A DNA stretch of 64,000 bases from Ensifer sp. LC11 (lineage in GTDB: Bacteria; Pseudomonadota; Alphaproteobacteria; Rhizobiales; Rhizobiaceae). Every line of letters begins with the position of its first letter. Position 1 is the stretch's first letter. The DNA lies in NCBI RefSeq assembly GCF_001695835.1, contig NZ_MBSO01000004.1, positions 1-64,000 of the forward strand, in the 5' to 3' direction. Below the pieces are notes generated by a model. The model saw only the letters and a list, made by a program, of their open reading frames with translations, was not told the origin of the DNA and ran no database searches. This document shows positions 40,631 to 42,803 of this stretch, in pieces. The translations under genes were made by a program, and so were the position numbers.

Positions 40631-41460
40631 TTTCCAACCTGCATGTGTATGTGGTCGTCGTGCCTGGCAGCCCTGCAACCCTGAAACCTAATGGACTCCG
40701 CCTCAACGCCAAGTCTCTGCGCCAGATGCGGTTCCACGAATATCTTCTCGATGCCGAAATCGCTCCCCTCGCCTGAGAGCCAGCGGAGCGCCTCTGTTGT
40801 GCGGCCTTCTTCCAGCGGCAAGGGCCGCCACAGCGGCTGCAAGAAGTCCAAGTCCCACCGCAAGGTCAAGAGGTCTTCGCGATCCCGGCATGGAAGAATA
40901 CTATCCGGACGGGGTTGCTCGAAGGCGAAATAGCCGATCGGCGAACGGGTCGCCTTATCCAGATAGCCGCTACCGGTGTCCTGATAGAAAAACGCGATAT
41001 CGAGCTTCCGACCGTCCGAATGGGACAGATGCGGGAACAGCGGATAGCCGTTGAAAAACGGAAAATTGGCGTCGAGCGCCAAGGTGGTCGTTCCGGGGAA
41101 CGCCTGATCCAGATGCCGCGACAGCGCGACGGCCGCGTCCTTCAGTTCCGGAACGACATATTGGCGGTTCAGGACACAGAAGAAAGGCGACTGCATCTTC
41201 AGCCGCGAGGTGCCGTCGTAAAAACAGGGCAGCGGAACCCGGCCGAAGATCGGGGCCACGGCATAGCTGAGTGCACTCCCCGCTGCATAGAGCCCAAGAA
41301 AGAGCGCAAGAAAAACAGCAACGCCGGCTCCGCTTCGACGCACGAGACCAAGAGTGACGAGCCAGACGACGCCGCCGATCTGCGTCAACAACGTCAGGAG
41401 AACGACGACCGCAAACGTTAGCAGCCATCTCATTCGTGCCGCAAGCGTCTTGGACTTCAT
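40627..41460 (-). CDS. Membrane-anchored LAS-superfamily (MepA/VanY-like) zinc metallopeptidase
   Basis: 277 residues: two N-terminal hydrophobic helices (about 11-38 and 47-68), then a domain with zinc-site-like motifs. HSDGRKLD supplies His147 and Asp154 in HxxxxxxD spacing, and the C-terminal HDDHIHMQV supplies His270/His272, as in the HxH motif of MepA (GHDDHFHVRL) and D-Ala-D-Ala carboxypeptidases. It is probably a murein-directed hydrolase acting in the periplasm. It overlaps both aroA-like and cmk by four bases (ATGA on each side), an unusual insertion in an essential operon. Confidence 0.7.
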
Positions 41461-42803
41461 GCGATCCTCGCTCCGAGCCCTGCCATCAGGTCCAGCAACT
41501 CCGGAAAGTTCGCCGCGATCATCTTCGTGTCGTCAACGGTAATCGGATGCTCCGAGGCAAGCCCCATCACCAGGAAGCTCATGGCGATACGGGGGTCGCG
41601 GAGGGTCTTCACCACGCCGCCTGAAACACTTCCGAGGCTCTTGCCGCCGGGGCAGCCCCGCACGATCAGCGAAGACCTGCCCTCCTCGCAATCGACACCG
41701 TTGAGTTTCAGGCCCACGGCGATGGCGGTGAGACGATCGGTCTCCTTCGCACGCAGTTCATCAAGGCCGTTCATGACGGTCGCGCCTTCGGCAAAGGTGG
41801 CGGCGACGGCGAGAGCCGGGTACTCTTCGATCATCGAGGCGGCACGCTCCTGGCGAACCACAACGCCTTTCAGTTCGGAGTGGCGCACCCTCAGATCGGC
41901 CACGTCTTCGCCGACCACCTGCCTGCTATCGATCACCTCGATGTCGCCACCCATCTCCTGCAAGGTCAGGATCAAGCCGGTGCGGGTCGGGTTCATCAGC
42001 ACGTTACGGATGGTGACGTCGGAGCCCGGAACGATGAGCGCCGCGACCAGCGGAAAAGCCGCCAAGGACGGATCGCCGGGCACGTCGATCTCCTGGCCAA
42101 AAAGCCTGCCGCGGCCTACAAGCCGGATGGTGCGGACACCGGCGGCGTCGATCTCCACCGAGAGTTCGGCACCGAATCCGCGGAGCATGCGTTCCGTATG
42201 GTCACGGGTCATCGCCGGCTCGATGACGGTGGTGATGCCGGGCGCATTGAGGCCGGCCAACAGCACAGCCGATTTCACCCGGGCGGACGCGACCGGCAAA
42301 CGGCAGGTGATCGGCGTCGGCGTCTTCGGTCCGCGAAGTCTCACCGGCAACCGGTCGCTTGCGGCAGCCTCTATCTGCACGCCCATCTGGCGCAGCGGAT
42401 CAAGCACGTGCGCCATTGACCGCCGGCTGAGCGAGGCATCACCGATGAAGGTGGTTTCGAAGTCATAGACGCCGGCAAGCCCCATGGCGAGGCGGCAGCC
42501 GGTGGCGGCATTGCCGAAATCGAGCGGAGCTTCCGGCGCAAGCAGTGCGCCGTTGCCGGTGCCATCGACGATCCAGCTGTCGCCTTCCCGCCGGATCCTA
42601 GCGCCCATCGCCTGCATCGCATTGGCCGTGGCCATCACGTCCGCACCCTCGAGCAGGCCGGTGATGCGCGTTTGACCGGCGGCAATGCCACCGAGCATCA
42701 AGGCCCGGTGCGAAATCGACGTGTCGCCGGGAACGCGGATCGTACCTCGAAGGTCAGCGGATCGGCGGGCTGTGGCGGGTCTCGGGCCCGATCCATGCGA
42801 CAT
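41457..42803 (-). CDS. aroA: Class II (CP4-type) EPSP synthase homologue with substituted active-site residues
   Basis: The 447-residue protein aligns without gaps to CP4-type 5-enolpyruvylshikimate-3-phosphate synthase up to about residue 406, and keeps Ala100, Arg128, Ser173, Lys353, Glu354, Arg357 and Arg405. Residues normally invariant are changed: PGDK-Lys28 is Thr (ACG), Gln175 is Arg (CGG), Asp326 is Glu (GAA), His404 of DHRIAM is Pro (CCC), and Ser247 of GDPSS is Leu. The frame is intact and genomic context is the native aroA locus. Function as a normal EPSP synthase is therefore doubtful; it may be a pseudoenzyme or altered enzyme. The C-terminus is about 8 residues short of CP4 because the stop overlaps the next ATG. 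Confidence 0.9.

Follow-up and report, generated by a model that had tools for sequence, protein, structure and literature searches.

A class II EPSP synthase homologue with a degenerate active site at the native aroA locus of Ensifer sp. LC11, probably displaced by a class I enzyme

Does the gene at the aroA position of Ensifer sp. LC11 still encode a working EPSP synthase and, if it does not, which protein has taken over and why is the old reading frame still open? EPSP synthase (EPSPS), the target of glyphosate, is essential, and the class to which it belongs is used to predict herbicide sensitivity. The question is raised by a stretch of 64,000 nucleotides, positions 1 to 64,000 of contig NZ_MBSO01000004.1 (hereafter the window), whose genome is designated G000 in our comparisons. 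The first-pass annotation of the window had described the product of its aroA gene as a pseudoenzyme or a much altered enzyme, and had supposed that the real aroA lay elsewhere.

The gene, named here aroA1 (product AroA1), occupies positions 41457..42803 on the minus strand and reads from an ATG start at 42803 to a TGA stop at 41457 (448 codons, 448 aa). The frame was confirmed to be free of stops and shifts, as had been reported, and none of the stops, frameshifts or large deletions that mark a pseudogene was found in it. AroA1 aligns without gaps with the CP4 EPSPS (PDB 2gg4, the best solved relative) across residues 1-447, which carries the originally described gap-free alignment beyond residue 406. 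In profile searches AroA1 scored 317.1 bits on PF00275 (cut-off 22.8) and 385.2 bits on TIGR01356, the NCBI aroA model (cut-off 287.25). AroA1 is thus a member of the class II EPSP synthase sequence family, and it shares with the CP4-type enzymes (PDB 2gg4 and 2gga; TIGR01356/PF00275) the gap-free alignment and an Ala at position 100.

The gene heads four reading frames that lie in a row on the same strand. It is followed on the minus strand by an open reading frame (ORF) of 277 aa with no assigned family, which overlaps the aroA1 stop codon (40627..41460), by cmk (cytidylate kinase; 39992..40630) and by rpsA (ribosomal protein S1; 38120..39844), the last two being native downstream neighbours that were named by eye. 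The best explanation is that this is the class II EPSP synthase gene which Rhizobiaceae had ancestrally, and that it has stayed at the native aroA-cmk-rpsA locus. Among 16 members of the genus, the 277-aa ORF was near full length in eight (window genome counted) and partial in G012, and it had no match at E<=1e-10 in the examined regions of the other seven. It matched no Pfam or NCBIfam model. This ORF, placed between aroA1 and cmk, has an N-terminal hydrophobic stretch, and the sequence DDHIHMQ together with one 12-letter motif led us to guess at a peptidase-like fold.

Five departures from the usual active-site residues had been claimed for AroA1, and all of them were found in the codons, each on the minus strand: ACG at codon 28 (42720..42722), giving Thr for Lys (K28T); CGG at codon 175 (42279..42281), Arg for Gln (Q175R); TTG at codon 247 (42063..42065), Leu for Ser (S247L), a change that recurs in other lineages; GAA at codon 326 (41826..41828), Glu for Asp (D326E); and CCC at codon 404 (41592..41594), Pro for His (H404P). 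We take positions 28 and 326 to be the counterparts of Lys22 and Asp313 in the E. coli EPSPS. The codons also bear out the reported preservation of S173, K353, E354, R357 and R405; since these residues and R33 and R128 are kept, AroA1 may have a residual or altered activity. One of the original readings had to be corrected. Ala100 had been counted among the kept residues, whereas the family residue is Gly, present in 14 of the 16 genus rows and in 53/53 other rows (two of the 53 being named copies of genus members). The Ala encoded by GCC at codon 100 (42504..42506, minus strand) is the residue of CP4, so that G100A adds a departure to the list. The described near-universality of Lys28 holds generally but is not absolute, as Arg stands there in L071, a partial and distant row that is 40% identical.

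The Ala100 of CP4 has been linked to glyphosate insensitivity. An adaptation to glyphosate through G100A is nevertheless not favoured, because residues critical for catalysis were lost as well. The same G100A change occurs in G171; in G001 the residue is Asp.

We defined 146 invariant positions from 61 comparison class II proteins, whose source genomes were not all confirmed to be single-copy, and AroA1 differs at 13 of them: K28T, G100A, P129S, R132H, V169L, Q175R, S247L, P317R, D326E, L402R, H404P, T431A and S432N. This number is unusual, since a leave-one-out analysis of 56 rows, the comparison set assembled earlier, gave departures with a median of 0 and none above 7. The loss of residues that are invariant in homologues, which characterizes a pseudoenzyme, is thus found at 13/146 positions, on the presumption that the comparison proteins are active. 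Nine core positions were tested separately (K28, R33, R128, Q175, D326, K353, E354, R357 and R405), with roles assigned partly from the E. coli and CP4 structures. AroA1 is without the full catalytic set (K28T, Q175R, D326E), whereas the same nine positions are unaltered in 61/61 comparison rows. Taken alone, D326E is weak evidence, because Glu is the natural residue at this place in the EPSPS of Mycobacterium smegmatis (E321); in the E. coli enzyme, the D313E change is reported to lower activity 20,000-fold (both in passages of PMC8694188). In comparison with the CP4-type EPSPS, AroA1 lacks K28, P129, R132, Q175, S247, D326, H404 and others; it is probably no longer an EPSP synthase and, judged from these residues, most likely no longer makes EPSP.

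It had been proposed that canonical codons in a close relative would speak against this reading. Such relatives do exist in the literal sense, as 12 of the 15 congeners retain all nine core residues, but they do not reveal an error. Ancestral reconstruction gave a parent node with no losses and placed all 13 changes on the branch of the window genome itself, so the canonical congeners indicate a loss on this branch. A sequencing or assembly error was rejected on the grounds of 13 scattered changes at invariant sites, an open frame, 81% identity to the nearest congener and a genome that is 99.96% complete.

A PF00275 profile search of the window genome returned three proteins, namely AroA1, MurA and a second EPSPS, named here AroA2. 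MurA lies on another contig and scores 546.6 bits on the murA model; the possibility that AroA1 is itself a MurA or another enolpyruvyl transferase was discarded, as AroA1 scores far higher on TIGR01356 than on the murA model. The search for a second aroA, which had been suggested as a check, thus yielded an intact EPSPS with complete catalytic residues on another contig (C18). AroA2 has 423 aa, scores above the TIGR01356 aroA cut-off and is 29% identical to AroA1. In 39/39 collected AroA2 proteins, some of them from genomes with this type only, positions 28, 29, 33, 98, 100, 101, 128, 173, 175, 326, 353, 354, 357, 404 and 405 read K, S, R, N, G, T, R, S, Q, D, K, E, R, H and R, respectively. 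All 39 also read GNAGTA(T/V)RFL, with Phe at the place of E. coli P101, and by this signature AroA2 is a class I P101F EPSPS. AroA1 and AroA2 are both present in 16/16 species examined of the genus. AroA2 evolves slowly: the window genome's copy is 90.3-97.4% identical to those of its congeners, as against 65-81% for AroA1, 90.6-96.2% for cmk and 98.9-99.8% for rpsA. AroA2 would presumably be the working EPSPS that carries the flux. The 13 departures of AroA1, together with the intact AroA2, support the idea of a pseudoenzyme or much altered enzyme at the native locus with the real aroA probably elsewhere.

When 241 genomes of the class were sampled, ten matched AroA2 at E<=1e-60; eight of these (the window genome included) were at least 62% identical and two were 40-41% identical. 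This patchy distribution makes a horizontal spread of AroA2 likely. One AroA2 relative, L254 of G637 (74% identical), is reported to have one internal TGA.

We consider it quite probable that the native class II EPSPS was displaced by the horizontally spread class I P101F enzyme AroA2, with catalysis lost on the branch of this species. AroA2 would have been gained first, as its patchy distribution suggests; the two enzymes, whose co-occurrence is observed, would then have been redundant, with AroA2 presumably carrying the flux; and AroA1 would subsequently have lost its site for shikimate-3-phosphate (S3P) and PEP, a loss that is visible in the residues and that would have abolished activity. 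From this point the gene might be retained for a folded non-catalytic protein, as the selection observed in relatives would suggest, or it might decay and be deleted, an end suggested by one truncated copy and by genomes with the second type only.

The recurrence and selection comparisons were made with one genome per species. Loss of core residues was found in 0/61 comparison rows as against 8/36 class II proteins whose genomes carry both types, and additionally in G434. Four of the eight are among the 16 rows of the window's genus (G000, G004, G006 and G015) and four among 20 rows from other two-copy genomes (G171, G214, G083 and G318); the three rows whose second copy is of another kind showed no loss. 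The genus of G083 is represented by 17 class II proteins, and there the loss occurs in three of eight two-copy rows (G083, G318 and G434, the first two being counted also in the 20-row set), while eight of nine rows counted as single have no loss. The exception is G430, whose class II protein (L215) is degenerate and in whose genome, only 77% complete, no AroA2 was found; it is either an exception to a strict two-copy rule or a case of a missing contig. In all, class II loss spans four genera, to which one truncated remnant can be added: in G296, the native-locus gene adjoining cmk and rpsA matches over its N-terminal half only. Redundancy is permissive but not sufficient for the loss, since 28 of the 36 two-copy rows retain the core residues.

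In a survey of the family, most genomes had a strong class II match, and several genera contained both types; by hand count, about 75 of 394 genomes had a weak, second-type match only. Other arrangements were also seen. G103 and G177 have another EPSPS-like second protein (L122 and L123), which is 32% identical to AroA1 and can be aligned along most of its length, and their class II copies have zero changes at the 146 invariant sites. In G324 and G332, a second class II-like EPSPS (L182 and L183, 53% and 46% identical to AroA1) stands beside the main one. G128 is without a strong class II match and has two weaker EPSPS-like genes, L118 and L134, whose open frames encode 442 and 252 aa; its congeners G196, G260, G302 and G339 have three matches each.

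The extent of degeneration differs widely. The number of changes at the 146 sites is 43 in G171, 36 in G434, 30 in G430, 29 in G006, 24 in G318, 21 in G083, 12 in G004, 11 in G214 and 8 in G015, and between 0 and 9 in the remaining rows of the genus. Sites 28, 175, 247, 349, 353, 354 and 404 were hit repeatedly, and the replacing residues usually differ by lineage: T, R, A and G are seen at site 28, and R, D, E, A and G at site 175 of the degenerate lineages. S247L, by contrast, recurs in G000, G006, G007, G171, G318 and the G083 group. Arg357 is preserved in 10/10 tabulated degenerate lineages and Arg405 in 9/10, being lost in G171. As a sign of ligand binding, the retention of these two residues is noted only, the independent lineages being few.

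Selection on the broken copies was estimated with a codon branch model (GY94-type, F3x4) written for this analysis. Omega was 0.069 in the outgroups, 0.115 in the other branches of the genus, 0.204 in the window genome and 0.205 in G006, and omega=1 as an average over the window branch was rejected (2dlnL 46), all in a fit with a capped number of iterations. In pairwise comparisons with congeners, omega was 0.18-0.28 for AroA1 and 0.03-0.06 for AroA2. Because omega on a single branch mixes the time before and after the loss, we relied on clades that were already broken before their species split. The ancestor of G083, G434 and G430, whose matched stretches are 1344 bases each, was already without K28, Q175 and S247 (posterior of the family residue 0.00-0.02) and probably without E349 and K353 (0.05 and 0.19). 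Within this clade omega was 0.226 against a background of 0.083, and omega=1 was rejected (2dlnL 161), a result that was stable under further iterations. The ancestor of G004, G015 and G006, in the window's own genus, had Q175E (P 0.93), a change that may by itself have ended activity; within this clade omega was 0.183, with omega=1 rejected (2dlnL 229), and a smaller fit of nine species that was run longer gave 0.187 (2dlnL 223). We therefore lean strongly to the conclusion that degenerate AroA1 is retained by purifying selection in these two related species groups.

The losses are not evenly placed. When 14 substrate-contact sites were compared with the other 132 invariant sites, the window genome showed losses at 4/14 contact sites as against 9/132 others (p=0.023). 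Enrichment was also found in G006 (p=0.008) and in G083, G434, G430 and G171 (p about 0.001 or less, down to 7e-6); it was not significant in G318, G214, G004 and G015 (p 0.17-0.72). It thus appears that in several lineages catalytic positions were released more than structural ones.

What this means for the window gene itself is a closer matter. We put at somewhat below an even chance that AroA1 persists in this species as a folded non-catalytic protein, that is, a pseudoenzyme. The same tentative standing is given to a broader reading, in which the class II enzyme repeatedly and independently became a retained, non-catalytic EPSPS-fold protein with a binding, sensing or partner role, the window protein being an early member. 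Such conversions would have followed the spread of class I enzymes into Rhizobiaceae: the S3P and phosphate pocket (28, 33, 175, 353 and 354) would have been given up, Arg357 and usually Arg405 preserved, and the new role selected across species splits.

Close to an even chance is given to recent neutral decay, according to which aroA1 lately became functionless, has no role, is open merely because the loss is young, and has its stops and deletions still to come. On the window genome's own branch, 13 changes fall on invariant sites and 62 on variable ones. These counts fit a constrained branch followed by a late neutral phase of about 12% of its length, a hand estimate obtained by setting 42 implied neutral changes against the 351 that full neutrality over the branch would produce. 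The ratio of stops to nonsynonymous changes was measured as 0.020-0.024 (flat) or 0.025-0.031 (AT-biased), and the flat values were used. At 0.024 stops per nonsynonymous change, 42 changes would have produced about one stop, and zero stops have P of about 0.36. That gene loss is a real end point is shown by the truncated G296 remnant and by the genomes with the second type only. Against decay stand the rejection of omega=1 over the whole window branch, the enrichment of losses at contact sites, and an omega of 0.18-0.23 in related lineages that were broken before their species split. It is also opposed by the stop counts: none was present in 16/16 genus frames or in the 17 sister-genus frames checked, and none was reported for G171. 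Uniform neutral loss would predict about 11 stops over G000, G006, G434, G318 and G171 (hand sum), and none was seen. As a proof of retention, however, the stop count carries less weight, given the measured flat ratios. For the window lineage, a young retained pseudoenzyme and a young decay both fit, and decay is slightly preferred, though for this species only.

An altered but active AroA1 is improbable. It would be a poor EPSPS, or would catalyse a different enolpyruvyl-type or binding reaction, tuned by selection, and could account for the persistence of Arg357 and Arg405 in the degenerate lineages and for a TIGR01356 score that still exceeds the cut-off (385 vs 287 bits); two of the departures, moreover, are residues of natural enzymes, Ala100 in CP4 and Glu at the D326 place in M. 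smegmatis. It must face the joint loss of K28 and Q175, and the residues that differ from lineage to lineage at these two sites suggest release over tuning, save for the recurrent S247L. More improbable still is that the frame is kept open solely for the expression of cmk and rpsA, its amino acids being irrelevant, for although aroA1 heads the same-strand run and cmk comes directly after the gene in G171, G323, G225, G355, G401 and G410, such a spacer would predict a missense omega near 1 after the loss in place of the 0.18-0.23 observed, cmk begins about 1.4 kb downstream in G083, G434 and G318, and no class II gene at all is seen in many genomes.

The displacement of the class II enzyme by AroA2, which we prefer, has a precedent in part. 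Massot et al. (2021, PMC7840833) described, in the passages considered here, Rhizobium strains with two EPSPS versions, which they stated had not been previously reported, and found that Rhizobium with both classes was unexpectedly less tolerant to glyphosate; from this lower tolerance they suspected a non-functional class II product. AroA2 is of the same type as their class I P101F cluster of Rhizobium, and AroA1 is not. Those passages, unlike the present analysis, describe no loss of catalytic residues, no recurrence and no selection test. The titles and abstract openings among the matches listed in our literature search likewise mentioned neither loss at the level of residues, nor its repetition in a number of genera, nor selection on the broken copies, and no EPSPS pseudoenzyme or Ensifer aroA pair was described in them; passages of PMC3371024, PMC8983318 and PMC12451606 contributed nothing more. 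This search covered subscription literature thinly, and it found no Sinorhizobium meliloti transposon data for two aroA genes. With pseudoenzymes in general, AroA1 has in common that its fold family is conserved and its catalytic residues are gone, and the copies of its relatives are under purifying selection.

The finding bears on how such genes are read. Gene annotation would call this gene aroA, as it scores above the NCBI cut-off, although it is probably not the working enzyme here; for the same reason, herbicide predictions made from AroA1 could mislead, since class II with Ala100 reads as tolerant. Degeneration of the class II copy could explain the published tolerance anomaly of two-copy Rhizobium. 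For the family, these genomes would amount to a replicated natural experiment, with independent displacements of one essential enzyme at the stages of an intact pair, a broken but open copy, a truncated copy and a missing one, and the window gene looks as if caught between losing catalysis and losing the gene. As there is evidence in two clades that the broken protein is kept, the reason why a dead enzyme is retained becomes directly testable.
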